DNA of 64,000 bases. Source: Porphyrobacter sp. GTDB lineage: Bacteria; Pseudomonadota; Alphaproteobacteria; Sphingomonadales; Sphingomonadaceae. The stretch lies in contig JAGIBN010000001.1 of assembly GCA_017744315.1 (NCBI GenBank), positions 434,001 to 498,000 of the forward strand, written 5' to 3'. Under the pieces are notes generated by a model, which saw only the letters and a list, made by a program, of their open reading frames with translations, had not been told where the DNA came from and ran no database searches. The translations under genes and the position numbers were made by a program. Each line of letters starts with the position of its first letter. Position 1 is the stretch's first letter. Shown here one piece after another: positions 12,262 to 50,595 of the stretch.

Positions 12262-12338
12262 GGCGGAGTAGCTCAGCTGGTTAGAGCAGCGGAATCATAA
12301 TCCGCGTGTCGGGGGTTCGAGTCCCTCCTCCGCTACCA
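12262..12338 (+). tRNA. tRNA-Met (CAU anticodon, elongator type)
   Basis: A 77-nt cloverleaf with encoded CCA. The acceptor arm is GGCGGAG/CTCCGCT (a G-U at 1-72), the D-loop is AGCTCAGCTGGTTAGAGC and the T-arm GGGGGTTCGAGTCCCTC. The anticodon stem GCGGA/TCCGC encloses ATCATAA, so the anticodon is CAT. It resembles alphaproteobacterial elongator tRNA-Met and lacks initiator features. A lysidine-modified tRNA-Ile2 shares the anticodon and cannot be fully excluded by eye. Confidence 0.93.
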
Positions 12339-15722: not shown

Positions 15723-15755
15723 GAACGCTGTCTAATTTTTTATTGTACGGTGTTC
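15723..15755. promoter_or_regulatory. Candidate TetR operator between desaturase and DUF2339 genes
   Basis: GAACGCTGT at 15723 and ACGGTGTTC at 15747 form an imperfect dyad (seven of nine positions pair) around an AT-rich TCTAATTTTTTATTGT centre. It lies 45-77 bases upstream of the desaturase start, where an autoregulating TetR protein would be expected to bind. Confidence 0.35.
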
Positions 15756-15803
15756 GATTTCACGATACCTCCATGCAGGAAATGTGATCGAGAGGGTAAC
15801 GGC

Positions 15804-18731
15804 GTGACCGAATTCCTGCTGCTGGCAACGATCTTTCTGGGCGGACTGCTGTTCGACACACGGCGCCGTCTGGGCCGGATGGAGCGACTGTTTCGCGAAG
15901 GCGGGCCTGCCGCAGCGCGAATCGGGCGGCCGGTCTCGATGCCCGAGCCTCCCTTCGAGCCGGAGCGCGTGCTGGAGCCGGTGAAGGCGCCGCCCCCTCT
16001 GCCCGTGGAGGATCTGCCGGTTGCCGAGCCCGCAGCGTGGGTCGAGCCGGAACCGGTGCCTTCCATCCCCGAAGCCGTTTCCGAGCCAGTCATCACTGCG
16101 CCGCCGCCGCCATCGCCGCCGCGCAAGGCGGCCGGTCTTGGCTTCGAGGACCTGTTCGGCCGCAAGCTGCCGATCTGGGCGGGCGGCATCACCCTGATCG
16201 TCGCGGCCGTGCTGATGGTGAAATACTCGATCGACACCGGGCTGCTTTCGCCGTTGGTGCGCATCGTGCTGGGCTTCACGTTCAGCGGTGCCCTGATCGG
16301 CGGCGGCGAACTGGCGCGGCGGCGGGCGGACTTCGTGCGCGACGAGCGGGTGGCGCAGGCTCTGGCCGGAGCGGGTGTGGGCGGTCTCTATGCAGCGACG
16401 CTGGCGGCGGCAAATCTCTATGGTCTCGTCGGGCCGGGGCTGGCCTTTGCCGGGCTTTTCGCGATCACCGCGCTGGCGCTCGGTCTGGCGCTGCGGTTCG
16501 GGGCGCCTTGCGCGGTGCTGGGGCTTGTCGGCGGCCTTGCGACGCCTGCGGTCGTCCAGTCGGACAGTCCGAGCGTGCCGCTGCTGGCGGGCTATCTGGC
16601 CGTTCTCATCGGTGCGATCACCCTGCTTTCGCGCCGCCAGCGCTGGGTCTGGCTGGGCGTCGGCGCGCTGACCGGCGGTGCTGGCTGGAGCCTCTTGACG
16701 ATCGCCATGGGCGGTCTCGACAGCGGTTCCACCCTGTCGATGGGGCTGCTGGTGCTGCTGATCGGGCTTGGCCTTCCGGCCCTTGCGCTGGAAGGCCGCG
16801 CGGTCCCGATCCTGCGCGGCGCGTCGGCGATCGTCGGTGCGTTCCAGCTGGCCCTGCTGGTGGCGAACGGCCACTTCGCGCCGCTGACATGGGGGCTTTA
16901 CGGCTTGCTGTCGCTGGCGTTCTGCTGGCTTGCCGGAACGACGCCGATGCTGCGCCGGACGGTCGCGGTGCCGCTGCTGACGGCGCTCGGCCTCACTGCG
17001 TTCTGGCCCGCGCCTGAAGCTGGTCTGTTCACGGCGGTCATGGCCGGGATCGTGGCGATCTATGGCGGCTATGCGCTGCGGAACTTGTGGCGGGAAGGGT
17101 GCGGCTTCATCGAAGTGGGCCTGCTCTGTGCCATCGCGCTCGGTGGTTACGGGGTCTGCTGCGCGAAGTTCTACGAGTCTGCCGCAGGCCACGACACCGG
17201 CTTTGCGCTGCTGGCCCTGGCGTTTGCTGCCCTGCCTGCGCTGGGTGCCGGACTCGGCTGGCGGCGCGAGGCGCGTCTCGAGGATGCCCGTTTCGCCTTG
17301 CTGGCCTCCTGCACTGGTTTGCTGCTGATCGTGGCCGGCATGATGGGTCTTCCCGAATGGCTGGTGCCGGTCGTCTTCCCGGCCGTCGCGGCGGGACTGC
17401 TGGGCGTCGCCGTGGCGGGACGGGACCATCGCCTGAAGCACGGTGCGCTTGGTTTCCTGGGGCTGGCGGTCGCCGTCGTGCTGGCGGTTTCGGCGGAGAA
17501 CGGCGCCTTGGCCCGTCTGGTGCAGACGGCGACGGCGACGCATCCGGGCCGCGCCCTGCTGCATTGGGGCGCGCTGGCTCTGACCGCCGCCGCTTTCGCC
17601 TGGCGGAATGCGGGATCGCGCCTGCGCTTCGGCTTGCAGCCGCTCACTGTGCTGCTCGGCTATGGCTTCGTGGCGCAGCTGGTTCCGGCGCCGTGGCTTT
17701 CCGTCGTCACGGCGGCGGCGCTGGTGCTGCTGGCCGAAGTGAACGGGCGCAAGCCTGTGATGGCGATCGAGGCCGCCCAAGGCATGCTTGTCGTGCTCGC
17801 GGCGCTCTGGGCGCTGGAACCGATGGCCTACTGGCTGACGGCGAGCGCGAACTCGGTGATGACAGGCAAGCCGGTGCTCGTGATCGATCTGCCGACATGG
17901 GCGGAAGCGCTGCGCCGCCTCGTCGCACCGGCGCTCGCGACGGCCTTCGCGATCTGGCGTGGCCGTGCGGACTTGCCGCGCCCGGTGTTCCTTGCCGGAG
18001 CGACGATGGTCGGCCTGCTCGGCGTTGCTGGCAGCCACATCCTGTTCAAGCAGGTCTTCGCGCTCGACGATCCGGAATCCTTCGCCCGCCTCGGCCTTGC
18101 CGAACGCTGTGTCTGGGAGGCTTTGCTGATCGGCGTGGGCATGGCAGTCTGGCGCCGTTTCGCAGCGCGCGAGATTGCTCTCGGCTTCCTTGCGGCGGGT
18201 CTGGCCCATGCGCTCTTCCATACCTGGATTTCGCTGAATCCGTTCTGGAGCCACCAGCAAGTGGGCCCTTGGCCGCTGGTCAACCTGCTGCTGCCTGCCT
18301 TCCTCATCCCGTTCGCTGTGCCGTCGCTCGCCGCCCGCATCGCACCGGATCTGGCGCCGCGTTTCCAGCTTCCGGCGGACCTGCTGCGGATGGCGCTGAT
18401 CCTGCTCTTCGCTTTCGCGACGCTGCGCCAGCTTTTTGCGGGAAGCCTGCTCTACGTCGGCTCGGTGGGCGAGGGGGAGAACATCGGCCGCTCGGTACTG
18501 GCGATCGCGCTGGCGCTCGGCTTCCTCGGCTGGGGCATCCGCGAGCGGCTGCGCAGCTGGCGCTTCGCCTCGCTGGTGCTGATGCTCGCCGCCGTCGGCA
18601 AGGTCTTCCTGTTCGACGCCTCGGGGCTGAACGGGCTGCTGCGGATTCTCTCGTTCCTCGCTCTCGGCTTCAGCCTGATCGGGATCGGCTGGGTCTACAG
18701 CCGTTACCTGAAGCCCGAGGCGGCGAGCTGA
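15804..18731 (+). CDS. Giant DUF2339 multi-pass membrane protein
   Basis: A 975-residue protein. An N-terminal helix (TEFLLLATIFLGGLLFD) is followed by a proline/glutamate-rich linker (residues about 30-105), the DUF2339 signature FGRKLPIWAGGITLIVAAVLMVKYSIDTGL, and then more than twenty hydrophobic segments to the C-terminus. Its function is unknown; it is broadly conserved in Gram-negatives. The start is GTG at 15804, preceded by GAGAGGG, rather than the ATG at 15750 inside the candidate operator region. Confidence 0.88.
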   Translation: MTEFLLLATIFLGGLLFDTRRRLGRMERLFREGGPAAARIGRPVSMPEPPFEPERVLEPVKAPPPLPVEDLPVAEPAAWVEPEPVPSIPEAVSEPVITAPPPPSPPRKAAGLGFEDLFGRKLPIWAGGITLIVAAVLMVKYSIDTGLLSPLVRIVLGFTFSGALIGGGELARRRADFVRDERVAQALAGAGVGGLYAATLAAANLYGLVGPGLAFAGLFAITALALGLALRFGAPCAVLGLVGGLATPAVVQSDSPSVPLLAGYLAVLIGAITLLSRRQRWVWLGVGALTGGAGWSLLTIAMGGLDSGSTLSMGLLVLLIGLGLPALALEGRAVPILRGASAIVGAFQLALLVANGHFAPLTWGLYGLLSLAFCWLAGTTPMLRRTVAVPLLTALGLTAFWPAPEAGLFTAVMAGIVAIYGGYALRNLWREGCGFIEVGLLCAIALGGYGVCCAKFYESAAGHDTGFALLALAFAALPALGAGLGWRREARLEDARFALLASCTGLLLIVAGMMGLPEWLVPVVFPAVAAGLLGVAVAGRDHRLKHGALGFLGLAVAVVLAVSAENGALARLVQTATATHPGRALLHWGALALTAAAFAWRNAGSRLRFGLQPLTVLLGYGFVAQLVPAPWLSVVTAAALVLLAEVNGRKPVMAIEAAQGMLVVLAALWALEPMAYWLTASANSVMTGKPVLVIDLPTWAEALRRLVAPALATAFAIWRGRADLPRPVFLAGATMVGLLGVAGSHILFKQVFALDDPESFARLGLAERCVWEALLIGVGMAVWRRFAAREIALGFLAAGLAHALFHTWISLNPFWSHQQVGPWPLVNLLLPAFLIPFAVPSLAARIAPDLAPRFQLPADLLRMALILLFAFATLRQLFAGSLLYVGSVGEGENIGRSVLAIALALGFLGWGIRERLRSWRFASLVLMLAAVGKVFLFDASGLNGLLRILSFLALGFSLIGIGWVYSRYLKPEAAS

Positions 18732-19120: not shown

Positions 19121-19219
19121 GCGGCCCAATCCCCGGGGGGCCGCTCATGCGCGGCTGAGAGGTGGTCAGCAGACCACGACCCGCTGAACCTGATCCGGTT
19201 GACACCGGCGTAGGGAGGG
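19121..19219 (+). ncRNA. TPP riboswitch (THI element) aptamer
   Basis: The conserved TPP-sensing core is present in order. CGGGGGGCC is followed by P2 (GCCGC/GCGGC) and CTGAGA (19155-19160), a P3 hairpin (GTGGTC/GACCAC), then ACCCGCTGAACCTGATC, the CCGG/CCGG stem and GCGTAGGGA (to 19216). The exact closing P1 pairing is ambiguous, with GCCC/GGGC the best candidate. It leads directly into a TonB receptor, kinase and PnuT-type permease, so all three should respond to thiamine diphosphate. Confidence 0.93.
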
Positions 19220-19268
19220 CTGGCGGCAGAGCGTCCGTTGTCCCTCCGACTGGAGCGGACGAAAGACG
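19213..19268 (+). promoter_or_regulatory. Riboswitch expression platform (anti-SD switch)
   Basis: GGAGGG at 19214-19219, overlapping the 3' end of the aptamer, can pair with CCCTCC at 19242-19247. Alternatively CTCC (19244-19247) pairs with GGAG (19252-19255), the likely Shine-Dalgarno, with GTCCG/CGGAC extending the stem. The first pairing frees the RBS and the second hides it. This suggests translational control with TPP binding favouring the closed state. This is inference from base pairing. Confidence 0.55.
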
Positions 19269-21575
19269 ATGACCCTTACCCCGAAGCCTATTCGCACCTT
19301 CACTTCCCTCGGCGGCGCCGCGCTGGCGCTGTTTGCGCCGCTCGCCATGGCAGAGACGGCAGACGAGGCGCCCGATACCCGCACCGACATCCAGGTCATC
19401 GGCCATCCCGACCCCGAAGGCCTGCTGCCGGACCAGACCGCGCCCAAGGCGATCAGCGCGATCTCTGCCGACTTCATCACCAAGCAGGCGCCGACCCTGA
19501 ACGCCTTCCAGCTCGTCAACCTGCTGCCGGGCGCGAATGTCTCTTCCAGCGATCCTTATGGCCTCTCGACCAGTTCGTCGCTGACGATGCGGGGGCTGGG
19601 TCAGGACCAGATCGGCGTCATGATGGAAGGTGCGCCCCAGAACGACATCGGCTATTTCTACGCCTACCCCTCGCAGTTCGCCGATGCCGAGAACGTGCGG
19701 CAGATTGCGCTTTCGCAAGGCGCGGCGGCTATCGACGCACCGGTCGTCGCAGCGGCGGGCGGCACGCTGGCGCTCTCGCTGGACGATCCGAAGCCGGAGA
19801 TGGGCGGGCTGGTCAATCTCTCGGCGGGGTCCTACGACGCGCGTCGTGCTTTCGTGCGCTTCGACACCGGCACGCTCGGGGCCAGCGGGATCAAGGCCTT
19901 CATCTCCTATTCGAACAACCGCGCGGACAACTGGCGCGGCGCGGGCTTCGACAAGCGCCAGCACGTCGATGCCAAGCTGCTGCGCGAATGGGGCGAGGGC
20001 AACCGTGCCAGCATCTCGTTCTCGTACAACGACGCCAATACCTCGAGCTACGCCAGCCCGACCCTGGCCGACTGGAAGGCCTCGGGCCGCGACTTCAACT
20101 ATGACAAGCGGTACAGCGAGGGAAACACCAACTACTGGCGTCTCTACCGCGCGCCTTTCCGCAATTTCTACGTCGCCGCGCCGGTTCATCTGAAGCTGTC
20201 CGATCATCTGACGTTCGATAGCTCGGCCTATCTCCAGCTCGGCCACGGCAATGCGCCTTATGGCACCCAGCTCGCCACCACCGGCAACTTCCTCGGCACC
20301 GAGGAACTGACCCAGCCGATCGCGTTGCCGGGTGCGGTCGACGGCGTCGCGACGGTAATGGGCAACTGGACCGGCAAGCAATTCCGCGTGGGCGACGTCA
20401 GCAAGCTGACCCTCACCGCAGGCGCGCATACGCTCACGGCGGGGGTCTGGTTCGACTACGGCACCGACCGCGTCACCCAGTCCTACACCTCGATCGATGC
20501 GAACGGCCGCCCGTTCGACATGTGGGGCTATCAGGACAAGGCCATCCGCACCGCCGACGGACGCCTGCTCGCTTACGAGAACGCGCGGACCGAAACGGTG
20601 ACCAAGGGCTTCTTCCTCGCCGACAGTATCGCGGTGACGCCGCGCCTCGTCGTCGATCTGGGCTTCAAGGGCGTGGACGTGCTGCGCAATGGCCGCAATT
20701 ACCTGCCCGGCCCGCAGGACCGGATCCGCAAGGACAGCTTCGCTGCCCTGCCGCGCGCCGCGGTGCACTACAAGCTGGACGAGCGGCAGCAGCTTTTCGC
20801 CAACGTGACCACCAACTTCCGCACTCCGAACGAGTTCGCGCTCTACAACAGCTATTATGGCGGCGAACTGGTGAGCGCGGGCACGACCGGCCTCAAGAAC
20901 GAATATTCGGTCTCCGAGGAACTGGGCTATCGCTACATCGGCCCGAGCCTGTCCTTCTCGCTGACCGCCTTCCACTACCACTTCCGCAACCGGCAAGTGG
21001 CAACGGTGGTGAACAGCGGCGGCGCGCTGGTCAATTCGACGATCAACGGCGGCAGCCAGACCTCCTATGGCCTAGACGGCGAGATCGACTATCGCCCGGC
21101 CAGGGGCGTCAGCGTCTACCTTTCGGGTGAGTACCTGCACACGCGGCTGGGCGACGATCTCGCGGTCGGCGGTGATCTCCTGCCAACCAAGGGCAAGCGC
21201 GCGGTCTCCAGTCCCGAGTTCCAGTTTGCCCTCGGCACGACGTATGACGACGGCCGCCTGTTCGGCAGCACCGCGCTCAAGTACGTCGGGCGCCAGTACG
21301 CGACCTTCATGAACGACGAGAGCGTCAAGCCTTACGCCACGCTGGACCTCTCGGTCGGCGTGCATCTGGCCGGGCTGATCGATGCGCAGCGCATGGACCT
21401 GCGGCTCAATGCGATCAACGTGACCAACCCGCATGTGCTGTCGGGCGTGCAGGCGATCAAGACCAATGCGCTGGATACTATCGGGCGCGGCGGCACGGTG
21501 ATCGCCGGTTCCTCGCCGAATTACTACGTCGGAAGCGGACGCGCCTTCGTGGCGACGCTCAGCCGCGCCTTCTGA
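19269..21575 (+). CDS. TonB-dependent receptor, probable thiamine outer-membrane importer
   Basis: A 768-residue outer-membrane receptor. A signal peptide (AALALFAPLAMA-ET) precedes a TonB box-like DIQVIGH, a plug domain (residues about 55-175, QLVNLLPGANVSS, SLTMRGLG, MMEGAPQND) and a 22-strand barrel ending in ...VATLSRAF with terminal Phe. Position behind a TPP riboswitch and ahead of a PnuC/PnuT-type gene makes thiamine or a thiamine phosphate the likely substrate, as for the OMR1 receptors. TonB/ExbBD are elsewhere. Confidence 0.9.
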   Translation: MTLTPKPIRTFTSLGGAALALFAPLAMAETADEAPDTRTDIQVIGHPDPEGLLPDQTAPKAISAISADFITKQAPTLNAFQLVNLLPGANVSSSDPYGLSTSSSLTMRGLGQDQIGVMMEGAPQNDIGYFYAYPSQFADAENVRQIALSQGAAAIDAPVVAAAGGTLALSLDDPKPEMGGLVNLSAGSYDARRAFVRFDTGTLGASGIKAFISYSNNRADNWRGAGFDKRQHVDAKLLREWGEGNRASISFSYNDANTSSYASPTLADWKASGRDFNYDKRYSEGNTNYWRLYRAPFRNFYVAAPVHLKLSDHLTFDSSAYLQLGHGNAPYGTQLATTGNFLGTEELTQPIALPGAVDGVATVMGNWTGKQFRVGDVSKLTLTAGAHTLTAGVWFDYGTDRVTQSYTSIDANGRPFDMWGYQDKAIRTADGRLLAYENARTETVTKGFFLADSIAVTPRLVVDLGFKGVDVLRNGRNYLPGPQDRIRKDSFAALPRAAVHYKLDERQQLFANVTTNFRTPNEFALYNSYYGGELVSAGTTGLKNEYSVSEELGYRYIGPSLSFSLTAFHYHFRNRQVATVVNSGGALVNSTINGGSQTSYGLDGEIDYRPARGVSVYLSGEYLHTRLGDDLAVGGDLLPTKGKRAVSSPEFQFALGTTYDDGRLFGSTALKYVGRQYATFMNDESVKPYATLDLSVGVHLAGLIDAQRMDLRLNAINVTNPHVLSGVQAIKTNALDTIGRGGTVIAGSSPNYYVGSGRAFVATLSRAF

Positions 21576-21577
21576 TC

Positions 21578-22705
21578 GTGGGCGGTACTTCGTCTCATCT
21601 CGTGCATGGCATGGGCATGGCGCTCGAAGTGCCGCGCTGGCCGACGATCACTGCCGCCGAGGCCGAAGCGATCCTCGCCCGTTATCCCGAAGTCGGCACG
21701 CCGGGCGCGCTGCTCTGGCATTCGCCGCGCCCGTTCTCGGCGGCGACGCTGGTGGAGACGGAGCGGGGGGCGTTCTTCCTCAAGCGCCATCATCGGCGGC
21801 TGCGTACGCCTGCCGCGCTGGCCGAGGAACATGCCTTCATGGCGCACTTGCGCGCGGCGGGCGCTGCCGTGCCGGACGTGGTGGCCGGAGAGGACGGCGT
21901 GGGCGCGATGGCCGCGGGCGAGTGGACTTACGAGGTCTTGCGCAAGGGGCCGGGTCTCGATCTCTATCGCGACCGCCAGTCGTGGACGCCGTTCCTGACG
22001 CTCGGCCATGCCCGCGAGGCGGGGGCGGCACTGGCACGGCTGCACCGGGCAGCACGCGATTTTCCCGCAGGGCCGCGCGGGGACCATCCGCTCGTCAGCA
22101 GCTTCACGATCCTGCCCGCGCGCGATCCGCTTCTGGCGGCCGAGGCTTATGTCGCTGCCCGTCCGGCGCTGGCCGCCTATCTGGCCGACAAGCCCTGGCG
22201 GCAGGAGCTGGCGCGTCTGTTCGCGTCACTGGGGGAGGGGTTGTCCGAGCGACTGGCGGACCAGCCTTCGCTCTGGACCCATAACGACTGGCACCCCTCC
22301 AATCTGCTCTGGTCCGTCGAAGGTCAGGTGAGCGGGGTGATCGACTTCGGCCTGGCGACGCGGACTTGCGCGCTCCACGATCTCGCCACCGCCATCGAGC
22401 GCAGCGCCGTCGCCTGGCTGGATCTCGAGCAGGGGGCGGATGGGGAGGCCGCACTGGCGCTGCTGGCCGGGTATCGCTCGGTCCTGCCGTTGACCCGCGC
22501 CCAGATCGAGACGCTGATCCGCCTGCTGCCGTTGGTTCATATCGAGTTCGCCCTGTCCGAGGCCGACTACTTCGCAGGCATTCTGGAGGACCGCACGCAG
22601 GCCGATCTCGCGTGGCACGGCTACTGCATCGACCATGCCGACTGGTTCCTCTCGCCGCCGGGGCAAGTCTTTCTGCGGAATCTCGAAACCGGAGCGCTAT
22701 CCTGA
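21578..22705 (+). CDS. APH-type phosphotransferase, probable thiamine kinase
   Basis: A 375-residue kinase-like protein of the aminoglycoside/choline phosphotransferase fold. It shows the catalytic loop THNDWHPSNLLW and the metal-binding VIDFG. The nucleotide-binding strand carries FFLKRHH. In a TPP-riboswitch operon with a PnuC-like permease, phosphorylation of incoming thiamine is the natural role, trapping it in the cell. The GTG at 21578, two bases after the receptor stop, is used; ATG at 21611 or 21617 (MALEVPRW) is an equally good start. Confidence 0.85.
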   Translation: MGGTSSHLVHGMGMALEVPRWPTITAAEAEAILARYPEVGTPGALLWHSPRPFSAATLVETERGAFFLKRHHRRLRTPAALAEEHAFMAHLRAAGAAVPDVVAGEDGVGAMAAGEWTYEVLRKGPGLDLYRDRQSWTPFLTLGHAREAGAALARLHRAARDFPAGPRGDHPLVSSFTILPARDPLLAAEAYVAARPALAAYLADKPWRQELARLFASLGEGLSERLADQPSLWTHNDWHPSNLLWSVEGQVSGVIDFGLATRTCALHDLATAIERSAVAWLDLEQGADGEAALALLAGYRSVLPLTRAQIETLIRLLPLVHIEFALSEADYFAGILEDRTQADLAWHGYCIDHADWFLSPPGQVFLRNLETGALS

Positions 22706-23268
22706 TGTCGGCACTGGAGATCGTCGCCGTCGCCGTGAGTTTCCTCGGCATCTGGCTGACGGCGAGACGGCGGATGCTGTGCTGGCCGGTCAATCTCACC
22801 GCCTGCGCGCTCTACTTCAAGCTGTTCCTCGACGTGCGGCTCTATGCCGACATGGTGCTGCAGGCGCTGTTCGGTGCGGCAATCCTCTATGGCTGGACCG
22901 TCTGGGCGCGGGGCAGGGATCAGTCCGGAGAGATCGTCGTCAGGCCGCTTTCGGCAGGGCAGGCAGGCAAGGGGCTGGCAATCGGCGCCGTGGCGGCAGT
23001 GGCGTTCGGCTGGTTGACCAGCCGCTATACCGACGCAGCCCTGCCGTGGATGGACTGCGCGCTGAGCAGCTTCAGCCTCGTCGCCCAGTACTGGACCGCA
23101 AGGCGTCACGCGGCGAGCTGGCTGCTGTGGATCGCCGTGGACGTGCTCTACGTCGGCATGTTCGCGTTCAAGGGGCTATGGCTGACCGGCGGGCTCTACG
23201 GCGCGATGATCGTGCTTGCCGTGCTCGGCTACCGCAACTGGCAGCGGGCACGGCGGGAAGACGCGTAG
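22705..23268 (+). CDS. pnuT: PnuC-family permease, probable thiamine transporter PnuT
   Basis: A 187-residue inner-membrane protein with about seven helices. It has the PnuC family's WLTARRRMLCWPVNL N-terminal and QYWTARRHAASWLLWIAVDVLYV C-terminal motifs. PnuC homologues import nicotinamide riboside; the PnuT branch imports thiamine and sits behind TPP riboswitches, as here. Its ATG overlaps the kinase TGA (TGATG), so it is translationally coupled. The pairing with a kinase suits facilitated diffusion followed by metabolic trapping. Confidence 0.9.
   Translation: MSALEIVAVAVSFLGIWLTARRRMLCWPVNLTACALYFKLFLDVRLYADMVLQALFGAAILYGWTVWARGRDQSGEIVVRPLSAGQAGKGLAIGAVAAVAFGWLTSRYTDAALPWMDCALSSFSLVAQYWTARRHAASWLLWIAVDVLYVGMFAFKGLWLTGGLYGAMIVLAVLGYRNWQRARREDA

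Positions 23269-50150: not shown

Positions 50151-50595
<445 letters not shown>

Follow-up and report, generated by a model that had tools for sequence, protein, structure and literature searches.

What does a TonB-dependent receptor gene do in line with the genes of an APH-fold kinase and a PnuC-like permease, directly behind a TPP riboswitch? Exchange of vitamin B1 shapes microbial communities. The view of Sphingomonadales as B1 scavengers rests solely on the expression of omr1, which has been reported in this group (PMC12442306). The three genes described here would offer Sphingomonadales a complete, testable route of B1 uptake. They were found in the window, that is, the whole stretch of 64,000 nucleotides of Porphyrobacter sp. 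DNA that was analysed, and public records label genes of this set “phosphotransferase” and “PnuC”.

Operon layout and its riboswitch

The features of the locus are as follows:

19124–19233, forward strand: TPP riboswitch aptamer (THI element, RF00059), covariance-model match
19214–19260, forward strand: probable translational expression platform, with alternative pairing and a presumed switching mechanism
19269–21575, forward strand: TonB-dependent outer-membrane receptor, 768 aa, candidate thiamine receptor (Omr1/OMthi type); PF07715, PF00593
21578–22705, forward strand: APH-fold small-molecule kinase, 375 aa, GTG start, candidate thiamine kinase; PF01636
22705–23268, forward strand: PnuC/PnuT-type inner-membrane permease, 187 aa; PF04973

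The THI element proposed in the sequence-only reading was confirmed by cmscan against Rfam: RF00059 matched positions 19124–19233 of the forward strand over its full length (model positions 1–105) with 69.5 bits against a gathering threshold of 54.3 (E = 1.4e-11). The same genome has a single further TPP riboswitch, which lies upstream of thiC (the ThiC match was confirmed as well). The three protein assignments of that reading also held. Both the Plug domain (PF07715, 44 bits) and the beta-barrel domain (PF00593, 123 bits) of the receptor exceeded the cut-offs, as did the kinase against the APH family (PF01636, 106.9 bits) and the permease against PF04973 (160.6 bits, cut-off 27.3). The stops and starts are, as had been noted, near-overlapping or overlapping: two nucleotides separate the receptor stop from the kinase GTG, and the kinase stop and permease start share one base in TGATG. 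The GTG start is backed by orthologues having ATG at the same position. Judged from this layout, the receptor, kinase and permease are presumably co-transcribed. The gene upstream of the operon (15750–18731) encodes a large, ordinary DUF2339 membrane protein; a class A RNase P RNA (50155–50595) and a tRNA (12262–12335) elsewhere in the window are ordinary too.

The segment CCCTCC (19242–19247) can pair with GGAGGG (19214–19219) on the 3′ side of the aptamer, and is alternatively complementary to GGAG (19252–19255) upstream of the receptor start. Complementarity to both suggests that the two pairings are mutually exclusive, and that this alternative may control translation at the receptor start. 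The pattern [CT]C[CT][CT][CT]C, followed after 2–6 nucleotides by G[GA]AG, was found 3′ of the aptamer at 72 of 76 loci, compared with 0.9 of 76 in shuffled sequences; a hairpin was predicted for the expression platform, with a z-score of −1.7 that is not significant alone.

A scan of genome contigs yielded 109 kinase relatives, from which 80 loci, nearly all of sphingomonads judging by record titles, were kept. PnuC adjoins the kinase in all 80 of them, the receptor lies upstream of the kinase in 79, the reading frame of the kinase runs into that of the permease in 76, and the TPP riboswitch motif occupies the same place in 74 (Rfam-confirmed in a sample). At L103 no receptor is nearby, yet the kinase and PnuC are still together, and at L057, one of the six loci lacking the motif, the sequence ends inside the receptor gene. 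No TPP riboswitch was found at the sphingomonad-type operons L024, L025, L026, L027, L052, L066, L103, L107 and L109; in L026 and L027, 740–800 bp separate the kinase from PnuC. Chance does not explain such a layout, because about 80 other genomes have it as well. A close orthologue was present in only 6 of 201 sampled genomes of the family (own genome counted), so the distribution of the operon is patchy.

Two further observations concern individual loci. In the 2.1 Mb genome of L026, the PnuC gene is followed at a distance of about 3 kb by a CRISPR array (CRISPR-DR4 repeats, L026:11977-12427). An unverified record from human faeces, titled ‘Bacteriophage sp.’ (L141, MT837608.1), also carries the whole operon. 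Phage carriage was rejected, as the record is 99.7–99.9% identical to Sphingomonas parapaucimobilis DNA (L094); judging by this identity, MT837608.1 is a mislabelled bacterial contig.

As to the permease, its genetic context is that of thiamine, and no PnuT-specific model is among its profile matches. It scored above the cut-off of the NCBIfam model of the nicotinamide riboside transporter PnuC (TIGR01528, 69.9 bits, cut-off 42.45) and matched the PnuC structure 4QTN (E = 2e-4). Together with the public records, which say PnuC, the TIGR01528 match could point to an ordinary nicotinamide riboside PnuC served by a nicotinamide riboside kinase. We regard this as the least probable of the readings considered, since the TPP riboswitch stands at 74 of the 80 loci and in other families besides, and the kinase matches no NadR or NRK model.

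Identity of the kinase

The kinase contains HNDWHPSN at 235 and DFG at 256, corresponding to the catalytic motifs H-x-D-x4-N and D-F-G, and residues K69, H235, D237, N242, D256 and G258 are invariant in 26 kinase sequences. For its AlphaFold model, the alignment was limited to rows of the window, of genome contigs and of whole genomes, leaving out plasmid-derived ones. The model (pLDDT 90) is closest to the homoserine kinase 2PPQ and to other APH-fold kinases.

Among curated families, solved structures and fold neighbours alike, homoserine kinase comes nearest to the protein, which shares its fold and catalytic motifs with ThrB-type enzymes of PF01636. Its place in the operon might accordingly be a coincidence, the protein being a homoserine kinase or a phosphotransferase of the generic antibiotic type; we consider this very improbable. 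The identification as ThrB was rejected, as the kinase stays far under the cut-offs of both homoserine kinase models (TIGR00938, 39.8 vs 255.9 bits; NF003558, 51.3 vs 271 bits); another genome of the family, by contrast, encodes a ThrB-like protein that reaches 322 bits with the homoserine kinase model. Furthermore, the kinase is linked to the permease at 80 of 80 loci, always occurring with PnuC where its surroundings were examined. In the phylogenetic tree, operon kinases and ThrB-like proteins fall on separate branches, the support of the operon-kinase branch being below the starred level and the inner branching of the family largely unresolved. The phylogeny that had been proposed earlier as a check thus set the kinase apart from the ThrB-like group, while E. 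coli ThiK was too distant to place.

Two enzymes that phosphorylate thiamine were considered as well. ThiK was rejected, since TIGR02721 gave no match, and the comparison with E. coli ThiK gave a BLASTP E value of 0.26 and an hhalign probability of 0.5%; thiamine pyrophosphokinase was rejected because the kinase has no PF04263 domain. The earlier impression that the kinase is no obvious ThiK was therefore right, and it is no thiamine pyrophosphokinase either. ThiK/YcfN of E. coli (TIGR02721) and the operon kinase have in common the H-x-D-x4-N motif and, presumably, the conversion of thiamine to thiamine monophosphate (TMP), with ThiL acting next. However, the operon kinase shows no detectable homology to ThiK, is about 100 residues longer, and is encoded with its transporters. 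By these sequence comparisons, it is a member of an unstudied family, distinct from both thiamine-phosphorylating enzymes tested. In the open-licence literature, which makes for weak evidence, no paper naming the kinase was found, nor any trace of the name ‘TnkA’. The receptor and the permease are of known kinds; the kinase is the unusual part of the operon, and likely adds a third type to the enzymes that trap thiamine, the other two being ThiK and thiamine pyrophosphokinase.

Thiamine metabolism of the carriers and proposed function

ThiL was detected in 54 of 56 operon genomes, ThiC in 53 of 56, and ThiE in all 14 that were tested. Thiamine pyrophosphokinase (PF04263) was not found in the genome of the window; among the 56 operon genomes, it is present in one (G218), a MAG titled Rhizobiales with a sphingomonad-like contig, which is probably a chimera. 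ThiK did not exceed the cut-off in any of 54 operon genomes, nor did ThiM in any of 58 genomes. ThiL is present, and the genomes carry no further recognised thiamine kinase; for the step from thiamine to TMP, this leaves the operon kinase as the sole recognised candidate. Trapping of thiamine as TMP fits genomes of this make-up, as a matter of genetic logic and not as proof.

Since nearly all carriers possess ThiC, uptake appears to supplement thiamine synthesis and not to replace it. As a marker of thiamine auxotrophy the operon was rejected, for the same prevalence of ThiC and because the isolates without it keep ThiE and ThiL. Two such operon-bearing isolate genomes were noted, G212 (L045) and G239 (L090); they are possibly natural pyrimidine or B1 auxotrophs.

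We consider it likely that the locus is a TPP-riboswitch-controlled operon for thiamine scavenging. At low TPP, the riboswitch would permit translation of the receptor and the coupled downstream genes; the TonB receptor would supply the periplasm with thiamine (or thiamine phosphates), and from there the PnuT-type permease would let thiamine equilibrate into the cytoplasm. PnuT transports by facilitated diffusion, which is the mode presumed for this permease. The APH-fold kinase would then convert thiamine to TMP, which could not exit, and chromosomal ThiL would complete the path to TPP.

The closest studied parallel is the TPP-riboswitch thiamine system of Bacteroides, consisting of OMthi, PnuT and Tnr3, with genetic evidence for both transporters (PMC5613172). 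The two have in common the riboswitch, a TonB receptor, PnuT and a thiamine-phosphorylating enzyme, in Bacteroides often in one operon. They differ in that enzyme: that of Bacteroides is Tnr3, a ‘thiamine pyrophosphorylase’ (PMC5613172), whereas the APH-fold kinase is non-orthologous, probably TMP-making, and reliant on ThiL. Omr1, a putative TPP-regulated outer-membrane B1 receptor, is likewise a TonB-dependent receptor; the receptor described here is a candidate for that role. PnuT, a thiamine kinase and Sphingomonadales go unmentioned in the main text of a survey of TPP regulons (PMC3766115).

ThiM is absent too, so that hydroxyethylthiazole could be what the kinase phosphorylates in place of thiamine. 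What the operon imports and traps would then be a precursor of thiamine or a product of its breakdown (hydroxyethylthiazole or a pyrimidine), phosphorylated by the kinase for ThiE-dependent salvage. TPP riboswitches do control precursor salvage as well (PMC3766115), the lack of ThiM in all 58 genomes and the presence of ThiE in all 14 tested agree with such a role, and linkage to NMT1/THI5-like proteins is seen in two distant operons. We nevertheless find it unlikely, because the studied Bacteroides operons of the same layout serve thiamine, their enzyme acting on thiamine itself, and because a PnuT-type permease is the expected route for thiamine.

Related trios beyond the sphingomonads

Besides the genome of the window, one of 385 class-level genomes contains the operon, in the order TPP-TonB-kinase-PnuC: an alphaproteobacterium of another family (G503, L118). 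At the phylum level, the kinase was found in 14 of 399 genomes (own genome and G503 counted), and all 10 further neighbourhoods examined hold PnuC and a TonB receptor of a different class. Four of these loci (L136, L138, L139 and L140), from four genomes of two other families, are arranged kinase-TPP-TonB-PnuC and have Rfam-level TPP matches. The order is TonB-PnuC-kinase in Burkholderia and kinase-TonB-PnuC on Acinetobacter plasmids, and no TPP riboswitch was found upstream of these trios, even at E ≤ 5. Nor was one detected at the distant trios L024, L025–L027, L066, L109, L111–L114, L131–L135 and L137; at several distant trios, therefore, the link to thiamine rests on homology. The annotation of the three genes on two Acinetobacter plasmids (L111 and L112) reads phosphotransferase, siderophore receptor and nicotinamide riboside transporter; a kinase homologue is carried by another 23 plasmid records of Acinetobacter. 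The scavenging operon proposed here gives a likely function to a gene set widely misnamed in these terms.

Tentatively, and with some doubt, we propose that the kinase founds a separate, uncharacterised family of APH-fold kinases of thiamine (or a vitamer) across alpha-, beta- and gammaproteobacteria. Its members would have been brought together with different TonB receptors by recombination again and again, and in some lineages with phosphatase, NMT1/THI5-like and rhodanese genes as well. The result would be a modular pathway by which vitamin B1 that is phosphorylated or damaged could be scavenged. In family f194 (L132:5322-11885; L135:694-8070), the kinase is flanked by NMT1/THI5-like and rhodanese genes, which are followed by TonB, PnuC and a GntR/UTRA regulator. 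L135 has in addition an acid phosphatase gene between TonB and PnuC, from which a periplasmic dephosphorylation step may be inferred.
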